Source: Novosphingobium sediminicola
GTDB taxonomy: Bacteria; Pseudomonadota; Alphaproteobacteria; Sphingomonadales; Sphingomonadaceae
Direction: 5' to 3'
Length of the DNA stretch: 64,000 nt
NCBI RefSeq assembly: GCF_014196525.1
Contig: NZ_JACIDX010000001.1
Span: 248,001-312,000 of the forward strand
The translations under genes and the position numbers were made by a program. Below are positions 34,045 through 42,476 of this stretch, piece by piece; within the stretch, counting starts at the first letter, position 1, and each line of letters opens with the position of its first letter. The notes beneath the pieces were generated by a model. The model saw only the letters and a list, made by a program, of their open reading frames with translations, did not search any database and had not been told where the DNA came from.

Positions 34045-34817
34045 AAAGGGACTTGTCCCTTTGCAATCCCGTTACTGTCTTTGTCGTGCCAGAACGGCGA
34101 CGTTGCGTTTGGCGCGATAGGTCGGATTTGAAGGCCGCTGCGCGGCGGGGGATGTCGGCCAAGTTAGAGCTTGCAGTCAGTAGAGGTTGTCCGCAGCATA
34201 GATTTCCCCTCCCATACAGGGAATGAGCCAGTGCTAATCCGCCGGTTATACTACGTAACTCTGGGTTTTTGCATAGGCTACGCCAGCACTAATGCTTGGG
34301 CAGGTTCGGCACCTGATAAATACGGCAAGAATAAATGCGCACCAGCCGTATCAAGCTGGATGCCGCAAGGCAGTCAGTTCGGCGAATTGATGTGGTTTAA
34401 TGCAATAAGTGTAACTCCAGCACACTCCACATGGAACGAGTCCATCGTTAGCGAAAGCCGCCTCCAGCGCATGTTGATCAAGGCGTCTCGCAGCCAATGG
34501 GGCGGTTTCGTTCTGATCGTTTCACCTTCAACGTCATGCACGAGGGTAGCTGCTCTCAGGCGAGCGGTATCACAGCGTATGAAATGCGGCCCAAACCGAA
34601 TTTGCGTGGAATATTCGATGTCAGAATGGGAAGCGACACAGCCGCCGCCGCCGCCACCTCATCATGTCCGCTAGGGTATCCTGCCCGGACAGCCTCCTTC
34701 CTCCCGCGAAGCGGCATAACCACCACTCTTCTGCCCCCAAACGCAACACCGCCCATCGGACGCGACCAAGACATTACCGGGATTGCAAAGGGCCCCCGCC
34801 CTTTGCCCGCCGGAGGC
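34032..34817. repeat. Composite hairpin repeat, copy 4, with an enclosed gene
   Basis: A forward end (34032-34074) and an inverted end (34776-34817) are 786 bp apart, compared with about 200 bp for the other paired copies. The space between them holds a small secreted-protein gene (34231-34674). Confidence 0.6.
34231..34674 (+). CDS. Secreted hypothetical protein enclosed by inverted repeat ends
   Basis: From a GTG at 34231, behind CAGGGAATGAGCCA, the 147-residue product has a signal peptide (LIRRLYYVTLGFCIGYASTNAWA). The mature part is of mixed alpha/beta character, with four Cys and a proline-rich C-terminus (ATQPPPPPPHHVR). The central part (SQWGGFVLIVSPSTSCTRVAA) has the look of a small alpha/beta domain, but I do not recognise the family. 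Base composition is visibly lower in GC than its neighbours, suggesting transfer. Confidence 0.6.
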   Translation: MLIRRLYYVTLGFCIGYASTNAWAGSAPDKYGKNKCAPAVSSWMPQGSQFGELMWFNAISVTPAHSTWNESIVSESRLQRMLIKASRSQWGGFVLIVSPSTSCTRVAALRRAVSQRMKCGPNRICVEYSMSEWEATQPPPPPPHHVR

Positions 34818-34821
34818 ATCC

Positions 34822-36114
34822 TTATCTTTTAACACCCCCCTTGCGCGCCGCGCGGACCGCCCGCAACGAGACCCCCGCCTCCACCCCCGGATAGAGCAAC
34901 TTTGGCCGCCAGACCCGCTGGGAGAGGTAGATGCCATTGTGGCCGGAGCAGGCGTAGGCGGCGAAGCAGGCGAGCGTGATGGGCAGGATCGGCCCCGGCC
35001 CGAAGAGTTCGAGGCCCATGAGGATGCAGGCGAGCGGTGTGTTGGCGGCTCCGGCAAAGACCGCGACGAAGCCGAGGCCTGCGAAGAGATCGACCGGCCC
35101 GCCCAGCACGCCGGAGAGCGCATTGCCCAGCCCAGCGCCGATGAAGAACAGGGGCGTGACTTCGCCGCCTTTGAAGCCGGTGGAGAGGGTGATGACGGTG
35201 AAGAGCATTTTGAGCGCCCAGCTCCAGCCATCGATCGGGCCGGTGAAGAAGCCGGGGATCGTTGGCGCGTGGGGGTCGGCGGACCACACGCCAAGGCCCA
35301 GATAGGCCCGCGTGCCCAGCGCATAGGTCAGCGCGATCAGCACCAGCCCGCCGATGAAGGGCCGCGCCGGGCCATAGCGCACATGCCGCTTGAACCACCC
35401 GCCCAGCACATGGTTCGCCTCGGCAAAGGCAAGGCTGGCCAAGCCGAAGAGCGCGCCCGCGATGGTGGCCTTGAGCAGGAGCAGCCCGTTCCAGCCCCCA
35501 GCATAGTGGATCGCGTAGGAAGTATGATGGATACCCCAAGCCTGACAGGCCCAGTCGCCCGCATAGCCCGCGATCACGCAGGCCAACAGGCTGGGCAGAT
35601 GCACCCGCCCGATGGCCAGCACCTCCAGCGCAAAGACTGCGCCCGCCAGAGGCGTGCCGAACACCGCGCCAAAGCCAGCCGAAATCCCGGCTTTCAGCAG
35701 GATTTGCACGCCCGCATCATCCAGCCGTGCGATCCGCGCCGCCGCGCTGGCGATGCTGCCGCCCAGTTGCACCGCCGTACCCTCGCGCCCGGCCGAACCG
35801 CCCAGCAGATGCGTGGCCATCGTGCCGATGAACACCAGCGGCGCCATGCGCAAAGGCACGCCGCCGCCCGGTTCATGGATCTCGTCAAGGATCAGATTGT
35901 TGCCGCCCTCAACGCTTTGCCCGACGCGGTGATAGAGCCAGCCGATCCCCGCCCCGCCCAACGGCAGCAGAAACAGCAGCCACGGGTGATCAAAACGCGC
36001 CCGTGTGACCGCATCGAGGCTCCACAGGAAGGCGGCGCACAGCGTGCCCACCACACAGGCCATCGCCAGCAAGGCCGGCAGCAGAACGATCAGACGGGAG
36101 AGGAGTGCGCGCAT
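34822..36114 (-). CDS. CLC-F type fluoride/proton antiporter
   Basis: A CLC-family membrane antiporter of 430 residues with about ten helices. The anion-site loop reads EGGNNLILDEIHEP (residues 69-82) where chloride CLCs have GSGIP. The gating Glu motif is GSAGREGTAVQLGG (Glu111). An altered GSGIP region is the mark of the fluoride-specific CLC-F clade, which exports F- in exchange for H+. AAGGTGGG precedes the ATG. A fluoride riboswitch lies immediately upstream, which supports the fluoride assignment independently of the protein. A chloride channel is the alternative reading. Confidence 0.88.
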   Translation of the reverse strand: MRALLSRLIVLLPALLAMACVVGTLCAAFLWSLDAVTRARFDHPWLLFLLPLGGAGIGWLYHRVGQSVEGGNNLILDEIHEPGGGVPLRMAPLVFIGTMATHLLGGSAGREGTAVQLGGSIASAAARIARLDDAGVQILLKAGISAGFGAVFGTPLAGAVFALEVLAIGRVHLPSLLACVIAGYAGDWACQAWGIHHTSYAIHYAGGWNGLLLLKATIAGALFGLASLAFAEANHVLGGWFKRHVRYGPARPFIGGLVLIALTYALGTRAYLGLGVWSADPHAPTIPGFFTGPIDGWSWALKMLFTVITLSTGFKGGEVTPLFFIGAGLGNALSGVLGGPVDLFAGLGFVAVFAGAANTPLACILMGLELFGPGPILPITLACFAAYACSGHNGIYLSQRVWRPKLLYPGVEAGVSLRAVRAARKGGVKR

Positions 36115-36143
36115 AGACCCACCTTGTTGCCAAAACAGCGAAA

Positions 36144-36224
36144 GGTAGGAATCATCAGCCTGTCACCCCAAGTTGCCCTAGGGCCGGGCGGTTCGGCCCA
36201 AAGGCCCGGCGGAAATCCATCGCC
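36144..36224 (-). ncRNA. Fluoride riboswitch (crcB motif)
   Basis: On the minus strand the sequence opens with GGCGATGG, then TTTCCGCC closing the first stem, then GAACCGCC, and ends with GGCTGATGATTCCTACC. This matches the conserved framework GGCGAUG...CGCC...AAAC...GCUGAUG...CCUAC of the fluoride aptamer. It is 30 bases before the CLC-F start codon. The 3' end CCTACCTT can pair with the downstream AAGGTGGG Shine-Dalgarno sequence (8 bp, one G-U), suggesting translational control that opens on fluoride binding. Confidence 0.85.
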
Positions 36225-36287
36225 TTGGGCGCGGCTTTGGCCCAAACGCGGCCCTGCGTCAAGATGAGGCGTCAAGGCCGCGCCCCA

Positions 36288-36695
36288 TCAGCGTATCGCC
36301 TTGACCTCCTCGGCCTTAACCGCGCCTTTGAACTTGTTGCCGAAATGGCTGCGGACATAGTTGACCACATCGGCCACCTGCTGATCGGTCAGCATCGCGC
36401 CGATCGGTGGCATGCCGTTCAGCCCTTTGACCACCACCATCGCCGGATAGGCGCCAATCGCGAGTTTGGCATTGCCCGCCAGCGCGGGATAACGCCCCGC
36501 GCCTTCGGCCCCCTTGGCGTCCTGCATATGGCAGGCAGCGCAGACGCGGGTGAAGATCTGCTCGCCGCTCGCCTCGCCCAGCATCCGCGCGCCAAAGGCT
36601 GCATCGCCAGCCGAGGCGGCGGCGCGGGCCGGGGCCTGCGCATAGGCGTTCGATGCCAGCCCCATCAGTGCCATGCTCAAGATCAGTTTTCTCAT
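36288..36695 (-). CDS. Periplasmic class I cytochrome c (distal)
   Basis: A monoheme cytochrome c of 135 residues. The signal peptide is MRKLILSMALMGLASNAYAQ. The heme motif VCAACHMQD and the Met-ligand region NGMPPIGAMLTDQQVADVVNYVRSHFGNKF are clear. The ATG at 36695 follows GGGGTGAGAGAC, and a GTG three codons upstream is less likely. It begins 5 bases after the stop of the upstream flavin amine oxidase, so the two are surely cotranscribed. It probably accepts electrons from that oxidase. Confidence 0.88.
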   Translation of the reverse strand: MRKLILSMALMGLASNAYAQAPARAAASAGDAAFGARMLGEASGEQIFTRVCAACHMQDAKGAEGAGRYPALAGNAKLAIGAYPAMVVVKGLNGMPPIGAMLTDQQVADVVNYVRSHFGNKFKGAVKAEEVKAIR

Positions 36696-36700
36696 GTCTC

Positions 36701-38290
36701 TCACCCCGCGATAACCCGTTGATGCAGCCGCGTGATCGCGTCGATGGCCGAGGTGATGCCCCCCTCCTGCCAGCCGCCGTAGTACGAGGCATGTTCGCCC
36801 GCCAACAGGATGCGCCCGTCAAACTTGCACAGGTTCTTGTAATGCTCGGCGCGCGATGCTTCCGTCCATGATCCGAAACAGCCCAGCGTGAAGGGCACCC
36901 GGTGCCAAGCCACGGAGACGCCGTTCATAAATTCGCCCCTGTATTGCGGATGGATCTGCGAACCCCATTCCAGCACCTTTTCGACGCGCTGCGCAGGCGT
37001 GCTGGCGGTCAATTCATAGCCCGCCGCCCCGCCGACATAACAGCCCAGCAAAACGCCCGGCCCCTTGTCGCCATAGCGGGTGGAGGGATAGGAGATCTGG
37101 CTGTTGGGCAGGTCGGTATAGGTGATGCCGCCGTAAATCTGGTCGTCCTGTTCCCAGAAGCGGCGCTTGAATTCGAGGCCTACCTTGACGCTGGTGGAAT
37201 AGGGCACGGCGCGGATCGCGGCGTCCAGCTCGGGGCTGACATTCATCTCGATCTGGGCCAGCACCGGCAAGGGGATCGTGCAGAGGCAGTAATCGGCCGA
37301 AGCCTTCATCACCGCGCCACTCTTGGTGTCCTTGTAACTGACGGTGACGCCCTTCTCGTCCTGCTGGATCGCGGTCACCTTGCTGTTTTTGCGCACCATA
37401 TGGCCCACGGCGCGCTCAAAGCCCTTGGCCACCTGCCCCATGCCGCCGACCGGCTGGAAGATGGTGGAGAGGTGATCCCATTGCAAATTGCCGCCGATGG
37501 AGCGCCACAGGCCTGAGCGCAGCAAGGTCTGCACATCAATCGGATCGGAAGGCTCAGGAACGGCGGACAGGCCCCCGCCCGGCTCCTTGTCATAGCCGCG
37601 CCGCCCGCTGCTGGCCGCGCCCTTCACATAGCGCATGTTGCGATCCAGCGCGCCCCATGAACGCAGCGCTTCGAGCAGGATCTCGCCATCCTCCTTGCTG
37701 ACCGTTTGCGCCAAGGCCCCGGCATTGACCGATTTGGCCAGCAATTCGCCGACATGGCCGTAAAAGTCCGCCTGAATATGGCGATAGCGCTGCGGCTTGC
37801 CGCCAAACGCCTGCGTATTATGGACATAGGCGTTGTAATTGACCTGCATGAAGGGTTCGAGCGCGACGCCCAGTTCATGGCAGTAATGAATGAGACCATG
37901 GTGATGCCATGGAATGCGCCACGGGCCGGGGTTGATGTAATTGCCCGGCGCGAACTGGCACGTCTGGGTCGCGCCGCCCAGTTCGGTATAGGTGTCGCCG
38001 CCCTGCAGCGTCCATGAACGCCCGCCCACGCGGTCGTTATATTCCAGCACCTGCACCTTGTATCCCGCGCGGGAGAGTTCGAGCGCGGCGGTCATCCCCG
38101 CCACGCCCGCGCCCAGGATCAAAACGCTGGCGCCCTTATTGTCGCCCTCCAGCTTGGGCGGGCCTTTGAAATCGGACGCCTTGGCCTGATCCATGCTGGA
38201 CATGGCCATATACATCGCCGAAGCGCCCGCCGCCGTGCCGATCATCGAGAGCAGATCGCGCTTGGTCATGGGCATGACAGGTTCGTTCAT
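36701..38290 (-). CDS. Flavin amine oxidase family protein, copy 2, exported
   Basis: An FAD-dependent amine oxidase or dehydrogenase of 529 residues. The ATG at 38290 is preceded by AAGGGGTG. The N-terminus has a Tat-like leader (MTKRDLLSMIGTAAG, with KR rather than RR), then the FAD-binding GASVLILGAGVAGMTAALEL and NDRVGGRSW. It ends with the family's second FAD motif GRILLAGEHASYYGGWQEGG. It is clearly a paralogue of the upstream gene and lies between it and a cytochrome c gene. The substrate is unknown. Nicotine oxidoreductase-type enzymes of this family use cytochrome c rather than oxygen, which fits the context. Confidence 0.85.
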   Translation of the reverse strand: MNEPVMPMTKRDLLSMIGTAAGASAMYMAMSSMDQAKASDFKGPPKLEGDNKGASVLILGAGVAGMTAALELSRAGYKVQVLEYNDRVGGRSWTLQGGDTYTELGGATQTCQFAPGNYINPGPWRIPWHHHGLIHYCHELGVALEPFMQVNYNAYVHNTQAFGGKPQRYRHIQADFYGHVGELLAKSVNAGALAQTVSKEDGEILLEALRSWGALDRNMRYVKGAASSGRRGYDKEPGGGLSAVPEPSDPIDVQTLLRSGLWRSIGGNLQWDHLSTIFQPVGGMGQVAKGFERAVGHMVRKNSKVTAIQQDEKGVTVSYKDTKSGAVMKASADYCLCTIPLPVLAQIEMNVSPELDAAIRAVPYSTSVKVGLEFKRRFWEQDDQIYGGITYTDLPNSQISYPSTRYGDKGPGVLLGCYVGGAAGYELTASTPAQRVEKVLEWGSQIHPQYRGEFMNGVSVAWHRVPFTLGCFGSWTEASRAEHYKNLCKFDGRILLAGEHASYYGGWQEGGITSAIDAITRLHQRVIAG

Positions 38291-38302
38291 CCCGGTCACC
38301 CC

Positions 38303-39895
38303 TTATGCCGCCAGAGCGCGTTTGTGGAGGCGCGTGATCGCATCAAGCGAGGAGAGCAGCGCGCCTTCCATCCAGCAGCCGTAGTAAGAGGCATGTTCCC
38401 CCGCCAGAACGATGCGCCCGTCCATCGAGACGAAATTCTGATAATGCGCCTCGCGGCTTTCCTCGGTCCACATGCCGCAGCAGCCCAAAATCCACGGCAT
38501 CCGGCTCCACGCCACCGAGGCGCCATTCATGAATTCGCGGCGGTATTCTTCCGGGTGGAACACAGACCCTTGCGCCAGCGCGGCCTCGATCCGCTTTTCC
38601 GGGGTCATGCCCGCCAGCATGTATCCGCCCGCGCCATTGGCAAAGGCGCCCAGAAGTACGGCGGGCTTGTCCTTGAAGAAATCGTAATTGGGATAGGAAA
38701 TCAGCCCAATCGCCTGATCGGTGAAGCTGTGGCCACCATAGATCGAATATTTCTCTTCCCAGAAGCGGCTCTTCATTTCCAGACCGATTTTGACCTGACC
38801 GCTATAGGGAATCGCCTTGATCGCGGCTTTCTTGGCGTCCGAAACCTGCATGTCCATCTGGGCCAAAATGGTCGCGGGCAAGGTGCAGACCATATAGTCC
38901 GCCGTCGCCACGCCCGTCTTGCCGGTGACGGTGTCGGTCCATGTCGCCGCCACGCCCTTGTCATCCTGCTTGATGCCCGTCACCTTGGTGTTCAGGCGCA
39001 CCAGCTTGGCGATCTGTTTATAGAAACCCTTGCCGATCATATCCATGCCGCCCTTGGGCTGGAACATAGTGGTCTGCATCACATAGTTGAAATAGAAGCT
39101 CATCTGGGTCCAGACATGGCTGGACAGGACATCGGACAGGCCGTTGATCTTCGACGGCGTGGGCGCACCATTGACGCCCCCGCCCGGCGCGCGGTCATAG
39201 CCGCGGCGGCTGGAAACACCCAGGTTGCTGGTGAATTTGAGATCGCCGTCCAGCGCGCCCCATTCGCGCAGCGCCGCGATCAGCTTTTCCTTGTCCTCCT
39301 TGCTGACGGCACTGTCGAGCGCGCCGGCATTGAGCGACTTGCCCAGCAGTTCCGACACATGGCCGGTGAAATCCACCGCCAGTTCCTTATACCGCTGCGG
39401 CTTGCCGCCAAAGGCGTCCTTGCGGTGGACCATGGCATTGTGGTTGAGCTGGATAAACGGCTCAAGTTCCACCCCGAAGGCTTTGCAGTAATGCAGCAAG
39501 GTGCGGTGATGATGCGGGATGCGCCAAGGGCCGGGGTTGAGGTAATTGCCCGGCTGATAGGCGACATTCTGCGTTGCGCCGCCCACCTCGACGATCTTGT
39601 CCCCGCCGCGCACCGAATAATTGCGGCCGCCGGGGCGGTCCTGATATTCCAGCACCTGAACCTTGTAACCCGCCTTGGTCAGCTCATAGGCCGCCAGCAT
39701 CCCGGCAAGCCCAGCGCCCAGCACCAGCACGCTGGCCCCGGCGCGGGCGCCCGACAGCGCGGGCGGGCCGGAAAACTGCGTCTCGGCCGCATGGCCCAGC
39801 GCCGTCATCGCCTGATACATGGCAAGGCCGCCCCCCGCACGGCCGATCATCGTCAACAGGTCGCGGCGGGTCTGGGGCGAAAGATCGCTGATCAT
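38303..39895 (-). CDS. Flavin amine oxidase family protein, copy 1, exported
   Basis: A 530-residue FAD amine oxidase with a Tat motif (SPQTRRDLLTMIG, twin Arg present). Next come GASVLVLGAGLAGMLAAYEL and the FAD/glycine segment QDRPGGRN, and the C-terminal GRIVLAGEHASYYGCWMEGA. Long stretches match copy 2, for example PGNYLNPGPWRIPHHH against PGNYINPGPWRIPWHH, and AFGGKPQRY and SKEDKEKL. The pair therefore arose by tandem duplication. It stands 12 bases before copy 2 and 48 bases after a cytochrome c gene. It is predicted to be periplasmic, with cytochrome c as acceptor. Confidence 0.86.
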   Translation of the reverse strand: MISDLSPQTRRDLLTMIGRAGGGLAMYQAMTALGHAAETQFSGPPALSGARAGASVLVLGAGLAGMLAAYELTKAGYKVQVLEYQDRPGGRNYSVRGGDKIVEVGGATQNVAYQPGNYLNPGPWRIPHHHRTLLHYCKAFGVELEPFIQLNHNAMVHRKDAFGGKPQRYKELAVDFTGHVSELLGKSLNAGALDSAVSKEDKEKLIAALREWGALDGDLKFTSNLGVSSRRGYDRAPGGGVNGAPTPSKINGLSDVLSSHVWTQMSFYFNYVMQTTMFQPKGGMDMIGKGFYKQIAKLVRLNTKVTGIKQDDKGVAATWTDTVTGKTGVATADYMVCTLPATILAQMDMQVSDAKKAAIKAIPYSGQVKIGLEMKSRFWEEKYSIYGGHSFTDQAIGLISYPNYDFFKDKPAVLLGAFANGAGGYMLAGMTPEKRIEAALAQGSVFHPEEYRREFMNGASVAWSRMPWILGCCGMWTEESREAHYQNFVSMDGRIVLAGEHASYYGCWMEGALLSSLDAITRLHKRALAA

Positions 39896-39943
39896 GATGC
39901 GTCCTTTATTGCGGGAATGGTCGGCGCTTGCTGGTCGCCTGAA

Positions 39944-40459
39944 TTACTGCCCACAGGCGTTGAGACAGTCGCGCTTGGGCACAGGGCCGGTGGCCACACG
40001 CTTCACATCGGCAACGGTCACAATGTCGTGGTAATCGTTGAAATGGCCGCGCACGTAATTGACGACAGCGGCCATCTGTTCAGGGGTCAGGATCTCGGTG
40101 AACCACGGCATCCCGCCGCGCCCCTTCAAAAGCAGGGTGATCGGATAATCCTTGTCTGCCAGCTTGGCATTGCCCGCCAGCGCCGGGATCACCGCCCCCG
40201 CGCCGCCCCCGCCCTTGGCGTCGGCCATGTGGCAGGCCTGACAGATTTCCTCGTAAACCTGCTTGCCCTCGGCGGAGATCTGAACATTCGTGGTGCCGCC
40301 TGCGGTGTCCTGCGCCATGGCCGGGGCAAAGCCCGCAACGCCCAGCGGCAGACATGCCGCCAGCGCCAAAAGCCAGCGGCGTTTTGTTGCCCCCGACGCC
40401 CTGTTTACAGCGTCATCATTCGCGGCCCCCGCCGCCCCATCCTGTTTCCATGCGCCCAT
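39944..40459 (-). CDS. Cytochrome c (proximal) with N-terminal signal anchor
   Basis: A monoheme class I cytochrome c of about 171 residues from the ATG at 40459, with a longer start at 40516 possible. A polar stretch is followed by a hydrophobic signal (RRWLLALAACLPLGVAGFAPAMAQ). The heme motif is ICQACHMAD and the Met region GGMPWFTEILTPEQMAAVVNYVRGHFND. The C-terminus contains two Cys (KRDCLNACGQ) that could form a disulfide. It is the first gene of the amine oxidase cluster and resembles the distal cytochrome. Confidence 0.87.
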   Translation of the reverse strand: MGAWKQDGAAGAANDDAVNRASGATKRRWLLALAACLPLGVAGFAPAMAQDTAGGTTNVQISAEGKQVYEEICQACHMADAKGGGGAGAVIPALAGNAKLADKDYPITLLLKGRGGMPWFTEILTPEQMAAVVNYVRGHFNDYHDIVTVADVKRVATGPVPKRDCLNACGQ

Positions 40460-40544
40460 GGCCGCGAATGTGCCATTTTCCGCGCCGCGTCCTATGCCGC
40501 TTATTGCGTATGGCAATAAGCGGCCCGGCCATGTTGAGTGGGGC

Positions 40545-42128
40545 TTATCCTTGGGCCTGCGACAAAATGCGCCGCATCGCCTCGATGGCGCGCTGCCGCT
40601 CGGCCTGCCCCTTGATATGGCTCAGTTCATCCTTGAGCGTGGCGGCAAAGGCGGCATAGTCATTCTGCCAGTCGTGGCCCATCGCCTGCTGAATATCGGT
40701 GCGCCCGGTGGTCAGCCGTTTGGCGGGCGCGCCCGGCGTCAGGCCATAGGTTTCGCCCAGCGCAGGGCGGATGATCGACAGCGCCGCATCCTCCTGCTGC
40801 ATCAGCGCGGCCAGCGCCTCGATCCCCTCGGGCTCGCCATGCGACAGGATCAGGCTGCCTCGGATCGGTTTGCGCGCGCGGATCCATGCGGCCAATTCGC
40901 TCTGATCGGCATGGGCCGAATAGGTGTCGATGCGGCGGATGCGGGCGTGTACGGACACTTCATTGCCCGAAATGCGCACGCGCGGTGCCCCCTCCAGAAT
41001 GACCCGCCCCAGCGACCCGGCCGCCTGAAAGCCCACGAACAGCACCGTGGATTCGCGGCGGCACAGATTATGTTTGAGATGGTGGCGGATGCGCCCGGCC
41101 TCGCACATGCCGCTGGCCGCCATGATGATCGCGCCCGAAATCGTGTTGAGATGCATCGAATCGACCGGATCCTCGACATAATGGACCGAGGGGTGGCGGG
41201 CGATGTCGATGCCGTCGAGGTCCTCCAGCTCATCGGCATGGACGGCAAATACGCGGGTGGCGCGGCTGGCCAGCGGGCTGTCGACAAAAATCGGCACGCC
41301 CGGAATGCGATTGGCCTCGACCAGATGGATGATGTCGGTCAGCAATTCCTGGGTGCGCTCCAGCGCAAAGACCGGGATCACCAGATTGCCCCCGCGCACC
41401 AGCGCCTGCTTGATCTCGGTTTCCAGCGCATCGCGACGCGCGGCAATCGTCAGATGTTCGCGCACCCGGTTGCCATAGGTGCTTTCGCAGACGACATAAT
41501 CAAGGTTGCAGGGGCCTTCTGCATCGGGCTGCAATTCCTTGTTTTCCGGGCCGATATCGCCCGAACACAGCAGACGCACGCCCCCCGCCTCGATTTCCGC
41601 CGAGGCGCTGCCCAGAATATGCCCCGCAGGCCACAGGCGGGCGCGGAAACCGGGGGCCGGTTCAAACCATGTGTCCAAAGGCACAGGCCGCGCCGCGCGC
41701 CATGCCGCCAGCCCGTCGCGCTCGGTATAGAGCGGTTCGAAATGGGCCGCGCCGCGCCGGTCGGGGCGGCGGTTGCGGCGGGTGGCGTCACCTTCCTGAA
41801 TGCGCCCGGCGTCGGCCAGCATATATTCGAGCAGATCGGCCGTGGCGCGCGTACACCAGATCGGCCCCTGCCACCCCATCGCCATCAGGCGCGGCAGCAG
41901 CCCGCAATGGTCAATATGCGCGTGGGTCAGCACCACGGCGGCAATATCGGAAGGGTCAAAACCCAATTGCCCGTGATTGAGCGTTTCGAGCGTCCGGCTG
42001 CCCTGAAACAGCCCGCAATCGACAAGGATATGTTTGCCCCCATCCCCCCGCGCCAGTTCCATGCAGGAGCCGGTCACGGTCTGGGCCGCGCCGTGAAAGG
42101 TGATCGAGAGCGGGGGCTGCGCTGTCAT
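40545..42128 (-). CDS. Metallo-beta-lactamase/beta-CASP nuclease family protein
   Basis: A 527-residue beta-CASP metallohydrolase of the RNA-processing type (CPSF73/YsaA-like group). The zinc motif is LTHAHIDHCG (His69, His71, Asp73, His74), with PAGHILGSASAEIE, CSGDIGPENKEL, SGMCEAGRIRHHLKHNL in the beta-CASP part and the C-terminal TYSAHADQSEL. Members act as endo- or exoribonucleases. There is no signal peptide. It lies upstream of and in the same direction as the cytochrome/amine oxidase genes, with less than 90 bp to the first, so it could share their transcript. Confidence 0.9.
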   Translation of the reverse strand: MTAQPPLSITFHGAAQTVTGSCMELARGDGGKHILVDCGLFQGSRTLETLNHGQLGFDPSDIAAVVLTHAHIDHCGLLPRLMAMGWQGPIWCTRATADLLEYMLADAGRIQEGDATRRNRRPDRRGAAHFEPLYTERDGLAAWRAARPVPLDTWFEPAPGFRARLWPAGHILGSASAEIEAGGVRLLCSGDIGPENKELQPDAEGPCNLDYVVCESTYGNRVREHLTIAARRDALETEIKQALVRGGNLVIPVFALERTQELLTDIIHLVEANRIPGVPIFVDSPLASRATRVFAVHADELEDLDGIDIARHPSVHYVEDPVDSMHLNTISGAIIMAASGMCEAGRIRHHLKHNLCRRESTVLFVGFQAAGSLGRVILEGAPRVRISGNEVSVHARIRRIDTYSAHADQSELAAWIRARKPIRGSLILSHGEPEGIEALAALMQQEDAALSIIRPALGETYGLTPGAPAKRLTTGRTDIQQAMGHDWQNDYAAFAATLKDELSHIKGQAERQRAIEAMRRILSQAQG

Positions 42129-42284
42129 ATGTCATCCTCGGTTCTGTTTTGCCAGAAAGGTTAGGCGCGAGGGACGCGCCCGGCAAGCCCGGGATGTGGC
42201 GGCAGATCTAAGGCGATGTCTTTGCGCTGGATCTAAAGGTGGCCCCCGCCGTTCGTAGAGTTACAGCGATATCAAGGGAAAGGT

Positions 42285-42476
42285 GCCTCCGGCGGGCAAA
42301 GGGCGGGGGCCCTTTGCAATCCCGATACTGTCCGTGTTGCGCCATGGGTTCGACGTTGGGGGAGCTGGCCGCGCCGCAGGCTATTAAACCGCTTCGCGGA
42401 AAAGCGCGTTCTGCCCGGTAAAGCACCACCCCATAATGGGATTGCAAAGGGCCCCCGCCCTTTGCCCGCCGGAGGC
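42285..42476. repeat. Composite hairpin repeat, copy 5
   Basis: The left end is GCCTCCGGCGGGCAAAGGGC...CCCTTTGCAATCCCGATACTG (42285-42330) and the right end is its inverse GGGATTGCAAAGGGC...GCCCTTTGCCCGCCGGAGGC (42438-42476). The core includes GCGCCGCAGGCT, shared with copy 1. It lies between the copB 3' end and the beta-CASP gene. Confidence 0.85.

Follow-up and report, generated by a model that had tools for sequence, protein, structure and literature searches.

Two predicted periplasmic L-amino acid dehydrogenase modules, each with its own cytochrome c, joined in one probable operon of Novosphingobium sediminicola

Results

Gene content and layout of the locus

The window, by which we mean the whole 64-kb stretch of Novosphingobium sediminicola DNA that was analysed, contains four genes on the minus strand in the transcription order cytochrome c, flavin amine oxidase, flavin amine oxidase, cytochrome c, preceded by an inverted repeat.

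40496..40524, minus strand: inverted repeat GCCGCTTATTG-ccatacg-CAATAAGCGGC upstream of cycA; possible operator
39944..40459, minus strand: cycA, monohaem cytochrome c, 171 aa, CQACH haem motif; N terminus KRRWLLALAACLPLGVAGFAPAMA, a Sec-like signal as judged by eye
38303..39895, minus strand: oxA, flavin amine oxidase family, L-amino acid oxidase type, 530 aa, TRRDLL
36701..38290, minus strand: oxB, flavin amine oxidase family, L-amino acid oxidase type, 529 aa from ATG 38290, TKRDLL
36288..36695, minus strand: cycB, monohaem cytochrome c, 135 aa, CAACH haem motif, Sec-like signal by eye

We took ATG 38290 and ATG 36695 as the starts of oxB and cycB, for which the list of open reading frames has GTG 38299 and GTG 36704, respectively. 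The intergenic gaps for cycA/oxA, oxA/oxB and oxB/cycB are 48, 12 and 5 bp. The genes, their order and their close spacing are as a first-pass annotation of this DNA had described them, and Pfam agrees: Amino_oxidase matches oxB at 200 bits and oxA at 185.7 bits, and Cytochrome_CBB3 and Cytochrom_C match both cycA and cycB (Cytochrome_CBB3 at 47.1 bits on the longer reading 39944-40516 of cycA, and at 47 bits on the longer reading 36288-36704 of cycB). Among the NCBIfam matches listed (for the oxidases, the best 25 of 95 and the best 25 of 72), no model scored above its cut-off for any of the four proteins. The two oxidases are 54% identical over 529 columns, and the two cytochromes 47% identical over 115 columns. 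Upstream, on the same strand, the block is flanked by a beta-CASP nuclease-like gene and CopB/CopA, and downstream by a CLC-type channel gene. We conclude that the cluster is real and coherent, and that it is a known kind of cluster in an uncommon joined form.

The repeat upstream of cycA spans 29 bases, with perfect 11-bp arms and a 7-base loop, and occurs at one place in its own genome at up to one mismatch. Its 21-base core is identical in all five genomes in which the block is contiguous (described below), including one whose upstream gene differs. Since these five genomes are close relatives, conservation of the core is at most suggestive, and the repeat is a possible operator. The minus strand at 34600-42300 yielded no sigma-70-type promoter, and a scan for promoters and terminators returned nothing above chance. 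The short gaps and the conservation of the block make a single transcript for the four genes plausible.

oxA and oxB are of the L-amino acid oxidase type

Within the flavin amine oxidase superfamily, oxA and oxB are of the L-amino acid oxidase (LAAO) type, by sequence for both and by fold for oxB. The best solved relative of each is the LAAO of Rhodococcus opacus (2jae), at 316.8 bits for oxB and 281.4 bits for oxA. An AlphaFold2 model built from a 28-row alignment for oxB, the only one of the two to be modelled, has a mean pLDDT of 85.9, with values below 50 at residues 1-15 and 24-37, and aligns with 2jae over 473 residues at Z 54.7, rmsd 1.6 and 37% identity. The next family by fold is snake venom LAAO (Z 38.7), and Foldseek on the same model agrees with this placement. 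The first-pass annotation had pointed to the nicotine oxidoreductase group, a placement for which we find no support: no row named NicA2 or Pnao stands among the best 60 PDB sequence matches or the 50 fold rows, where LAAOs are far ahead. A nicotine-type enzyme is thus not favoured, although NicA2 or Pnao could still lie beyond those rows.

In an alignment of 70 rows, 64 of them distinct and one being 2jae, the Arg at 2jae chain position 83 and the Lys at chain position 322 are invariant (70/70 rows each). We take these to be the carboxylate-binding Arg84 of the R. opacus enzyme and the flavin-side lysine, respectively, and the Tyr at chain position 370 to be Tyr371, a carboxylate contact; a search of the open-licence literature yielded no residue numbers for this enzyme. 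Trp425, Gln227, Tyr370 and Gln467 of 2jae presumably line the substrate pocket, and at these positions oxB has Phe, His, Tyr and Gln, whereas oxA has Cys, Met, Phe and Met. These differences make different substrates likely, and suggest that oxA and oxB take different amino acids, in line with the earlier proposal of a two-substrate system. Tyr occupies chain position 370 in 39 of 40 oxB-labelled rows and in 16 of 29 oxA-labelled rows; the Phe of oxA is therefore the mark of a subgroup. Because this Phe stands where the R. opacus enzyme has Tyr370, oxA might be atypical as an amino-acid enzyme.

The two oxidases descend from separate lineages, each with its own cytochrome

A quick maximum-likelihood tree of the oxidases was built from 88 rows, after removal of four Gluconacetobacter near-copies, matches of fewer than 480 columns and rows sharing their last 300 residues. 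In this tree, 17 oxA rows and six Acetobacteraceae rows form one clade (support 100, starred), and 33 oxB rows (32 distinct, one being the window's own shortened copy) stand beside five rows, three of them betaproteobacterial (support 94, unstarred). Branches are long in the outer part of the tree, and the order of the distant groups is weakly supported. Forcing oxA and oxB into one clade was rejected (p-AU 0.00033), which rules out a recent tandem duplication. The earlier description of the oxidases as duplicated, tandem paralogues is therefore misleading, since oxA and oxB come from separate older lineages.

The cytochromes sort with the oxidase type. In a tree of 57 rows and 112 columns, in which near-copies of the window group were included, 16 oxA-linked cytochromes, cycA among them, form one clade (support 99, starred) and 16 oxB-linked cytochromes, cycB among them, form another (support 90). 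The nearest solved relative of both cycA and cycB by sequence is the cytochrome subunit of fructose dehydrogenase, a flavin dehydrogenase. Separate oxidase lineages together with cytochromes that follow them point to two old cognate modules set end to end. The block is best read as the modules cycA-oxA and oxB-cycB, each older than the block, each found alone elsewhere, and now joined.

Distribution of the modules in the genus

We surveyed 195 genomes of the genus at a threshold of 1e-120, with at most seven candidates scored per genome, and obtained matches in 49. Types were set by identity band as read from the table, 67-100% being oxB-type and 51-57% oxA-type. With that maximum of seven candidates per genome, 17 of the 49 carriers have both types, 10 have the oxB type only and 22 the oxA type only; eight of the 10 oxB-type-only genomes have a listed completeness of 90% or more. 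In five of the 195 genomes the two types lie contiguously, with 18 bases between match ends, namely in the genome of the window and in four with oxB 97-98% identical. In a sixth genome, the oxA next to oxB is broken into two frames, with a small gene in between.

Flanking genes were identified by gene calling with codon scores. One of the five genomes (L153) has the channel gene and the four-gene block in the opposite orientation to their neighbours on both sides, and the gene calls there include no beta-CASP gene, indicating that the four-gene block stayed together as its surroundings changed. Other species of the genus (L134, L135) carry both modules within one locus of about 12-15 kb, among TonB receptors, RidA proteins with signal-like N termini, a DAO-family oxidase and a two-component system, and a similar locus of about 12-15 kb in a further genome (L137) has oxA in pieces. 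At L137, and likewise at L136, several copies or pieces of oxA-type genes lie near TonB receptor and RidA genes. From these copies and pieces, a locus of this kind seems prone to repeated expansion and breakage.

Cytochrome and RidA genes in the neighbourhood of related oxidases

Outside the window group we examined 30 genome loci and nine plasmid loci, the latter chosen from 37 matching records. A cytochrome gene lies within 400 bases of the oxidase, on the same strand, at every one of them (30/30 and 9/9). A RidA gene is present anywhere in the locus at 24/30 genome loci and 4/9 plasmid loci, and on the oxidase strand within 1.3 kb at 19/30 and 4/9, respectively. Some related loci also hold M20 peptidases and a DAO-family oxidase. 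According to an excerpt of PMC4433059, RidA hydrolyses imines produced by L-amino acid oxidase, and the RidA neighbourhood would fit an imino-acid product. Within the 64-kb window, RidA has no match. The same genome has seven PF01042 matches, among them two RidA genes outside the window whose products have signal-like N termini (L105 and L106, 65% and 68% identical to the RidA of relatives).

The genome of the window has 14 PF01593 matches, at least two of which are pieces of one frame, and 26 PF13442 matches; of the former, only oxA, oxB and a third copy, on C8, have a PF13442 match within 2 kb. That third copy is part of another module (L148, C8:11000-24000), with an oxB-type oxidase and a cytochrome, which runs divergently from genes for a TonB receptor and a TPR-sulfotransferase. 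Oxidase and cytochrome modules also occur on large plasmids of root-nodule Rhizobium, Mesorhizobium and Microvirga (L065-L067, L072). On plasmid pDSHI02 of Dinoroseobacter shibae (L069), such a module immediately follows cytochrome c oxidase genes of the same orientation, an arrangement that hints at direct respiratory coupling.

Predicted Arg-Arg and Lys-Arg export signals

The motifs TRRDLL of oxA and TKRDLL of oxB occupy equivalent places, at residues 10-11 in both proteins. By pattern and by eye, Arg-Arg is present in all 17 oxA rows and all six Acetobacteraceae rows, whereas Lys-Arg is present in 33/33 oxB rows, that is, in all 32 distinct oxB proteins examined, which include Sphingobium and Sphingomonas records. 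Of the 33 rows, 32 encode this lysine with AAG. Lys-Arg is also found in the oxB-type proteins of the 10 genomes with the oxB type only. The first-pass annotation had quoted both motifs correctly; its suggestion that only one oxidase retains the twin-arginine motif does not hold in the sense of decay, which is ruled out by a Lys-Arg common to all 32 distinct oxB proteins.

Nine of 32 distant rows were called Lys-Arg, with two distant rows unscored. One of the nine (L042) is a false hit of the pattern, its N terminus probably being ITRRAL; the other eight (L018, L024, L026-L031) are LAAO-type paralogues, some of them adjoining, of a single genome of the same order (G054). The genome of the window has one TatC match. 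From motifs read by eye and pattern, the proposed export of both oxidases is supported by inference. The Lys-Arg of oxB could mean poor export. If the Lys-Arg clade is exported by Tat, the block would set Lys-Arg export beside the Arg-Arg export of oxA, a comparison made by nature in one operon.

Discussion

We consider it fairly probable, from the sequence evidence and by analogy with characterized systems, that the block comprises two periplasmic L-amino acid dehydrogenase modules, joined in one probable operon, that reduce their own cytochromes c. Each flavoprotein would be exported folded, with its FAD, by a Tat or Tat-like signal, and would oxidise an L-amino acid or a close analogue to the 2-imino acid. 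Two electrons would then be handed singly from the flavoprotein to its own Sec-exported cytochrome c, which would feed the respiratory chain with no formation of H2O2. Hydrolysis of the imine to keto acid and ammonia would be either spontaneous or the work of a secreted RidA whose gene lies elsewhere in the genome. A fuller version of this model, with two respiratory dehydrogenases of different specificity served by their own cytochromes from one operon, and an oxB clade exported by a natural Lys-Arg Tat signal, is possible and is put forward tentatively.

That cytochrome c would be the electron acceptor, as had been proposed for this block, is supported by inference from the work of Akram and others, in which an adjacent cytochrome gene predicts cytochrome-using dehydrogenases well among NicA2-seeded flavoproteins, and a Tat signal together with an adjacent cytochrome mostly predicts such use; these dehydrogenases prefer their own cytochrome (available sections of PMC12224317). 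The tables there cover 27 enzymes of the NicA2-seeded set, and 'L-amino acid' is absent from the main text, so transfer to LAAO-type enzymes is an extrapolation. Other points also count against the dehydrogenase reading, among them that the flavin-side Lys is kept and is compatible with oxidase activity, and that RidA was not found in the window or at six of the 30 related genome loci. A flavin-side lysine is described as present in nearly all oxidases and dehydrogenases studied (PMC12224317, in part).

The retained lysine (70/70 rows), and the name oxidase carried by the nearest solved relatives, would also suit periplasmic L-amino acid oxidases that form H2O2, with the cytochromes serving peroxide removal or another pathway. 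Three clade 1 enzymes did react weakly with cytochrome c, so the signposts are imperfect, but clade 2 and 3 enzymes with both signposts were faster with cytochrome than with O2 (both from the sections of PMC12224317 available). Given, in addition, a cytochrome gene adjacent at 30/30 and 9/9 related loci and cytochromes that sort with the oxidase type, we regard peroxide formation as unlikely. A similarly low probability attaches to the proposal that the enzymes are amine, amino-acid-amide or other non-amino-acid dehydrogenases that merely resemble LAAO. The pocket of oxA, with Phe for Tyr370, Cys for Trp425 and Met for Gln467, would accommodate that proposal, but the carboxylate-side Arg is kept in 70/70 rows, and the RidA, M20 peptidase and DAO-family oxidase genes near some related loci fit amino acids.

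The first-pass annotation had also raised a heterodimeric enzyme, and adjacent genes with Arg-Arg in oxA only would allow oxA to carry oxB through the Tat system. Each oxidase type, however, has its own cytochrome, and among the 49 carriers, with up to seven candidates scored per genome, 10 have an oxB-type and 22 an oxA-type oxidase alone. That the oxB-type proteins of those 10 genomes keep Lys-Arg with no oxA match argues against obligate heterodimeric co-export. An obligate heterodimer is thus not borne out, and we consider a single enzyme of this kind very improbable.

If two dehydrogenase modules are indeed joined here, many genes of soil and plant bacteria that carry the annotation 'flavin monoamine oxidase' or 'L-amino acid oxidase' would encode energy-conserving dehydrogenases, and bacterial auxin formation via LAAO would depend on respiration and not on oxidation that yields peroxide. 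With the Lys-Arg clade, what has been a rare oddity of Tat export would become a natural family open to experiment, and the joined modules would let the strictness of oxidase-cytochrome matching be tested within one cell.

Comparison with known systems

The R. opacus LAAO (2jae) resembles oxA and oxB in its near full-length fold and in the Arg and Lys positions. It is named an oxidase, and oxA and oxB differ from it in having an N-terminal export region and different pocket residues. We know of no cytochrome partner of the R. opacus enzyme. A Chlamydomonas LAAO (PMC10805672) would be a eukaryotic parallel.

We take PMC5053998 and PMC12224317, as far as their text was available, as the direct bacterial precedents in the open-licence literature. 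In Gluconacetobacter diazotrophicus, lao encodes a Tat-signal LAAO clustered with cccA and ridA; Tn5 mutants in lao make no indoleacetic acid, and cytochrome-maturation mutants cited in the same paper make 5% of wild-type auxin (excerpts of PMC5053998). The likeness to the window lies in a Tat-signal LAAO with an adjacent cytochrome c. The lao cluster has a single oxidase, a downstream cytochrome and RidA, whereas the window combines two oxidases with two cytochromes and lacks RidA. Three Gluconacetobacter proteins share the clade of oxA, and of oxA only (support 100, starred), and all seven Gluconacetobacter loci retrieved, strain PAL5 not being among them, hold an oxidase, a cytochrome and RidA. 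NicA2 and Pnao with CycN likewise set an exported member of the flavin amine oxidase superfamily beside a cytochrome c, but NicA2 and Pnao share one CycN and belong to NicA2-seeded clades, whereas the window combines LAAO-type sequence and fold with two cognate cytochromes.

The Lys-Arg signal of oxB also has a precedent. TtrB is a Tat cargo with a native Lys-Arg motif, called the only known native case in the part of PMC6708511 available, and an excerpt of PMC3305326 mentions a natural Lys-Arg motif with which Tat export is preserved. oxB is like TtrB in its natural Lys-Arg signal motif, but TtrB is a single native case by that account, whereas the Lys-Arg of oxB is fixed across a flavoprotein clade, where it is a predicted Tat-like signal. 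The suggestion that the system is not yet described can hold for the joined pair only, a single Tat-signal LAAO with cytochrome c and RidA having been published (PMC5053998, in part). The general kind is known, and it is the joined pair and the export signal of oxB that look unusual.
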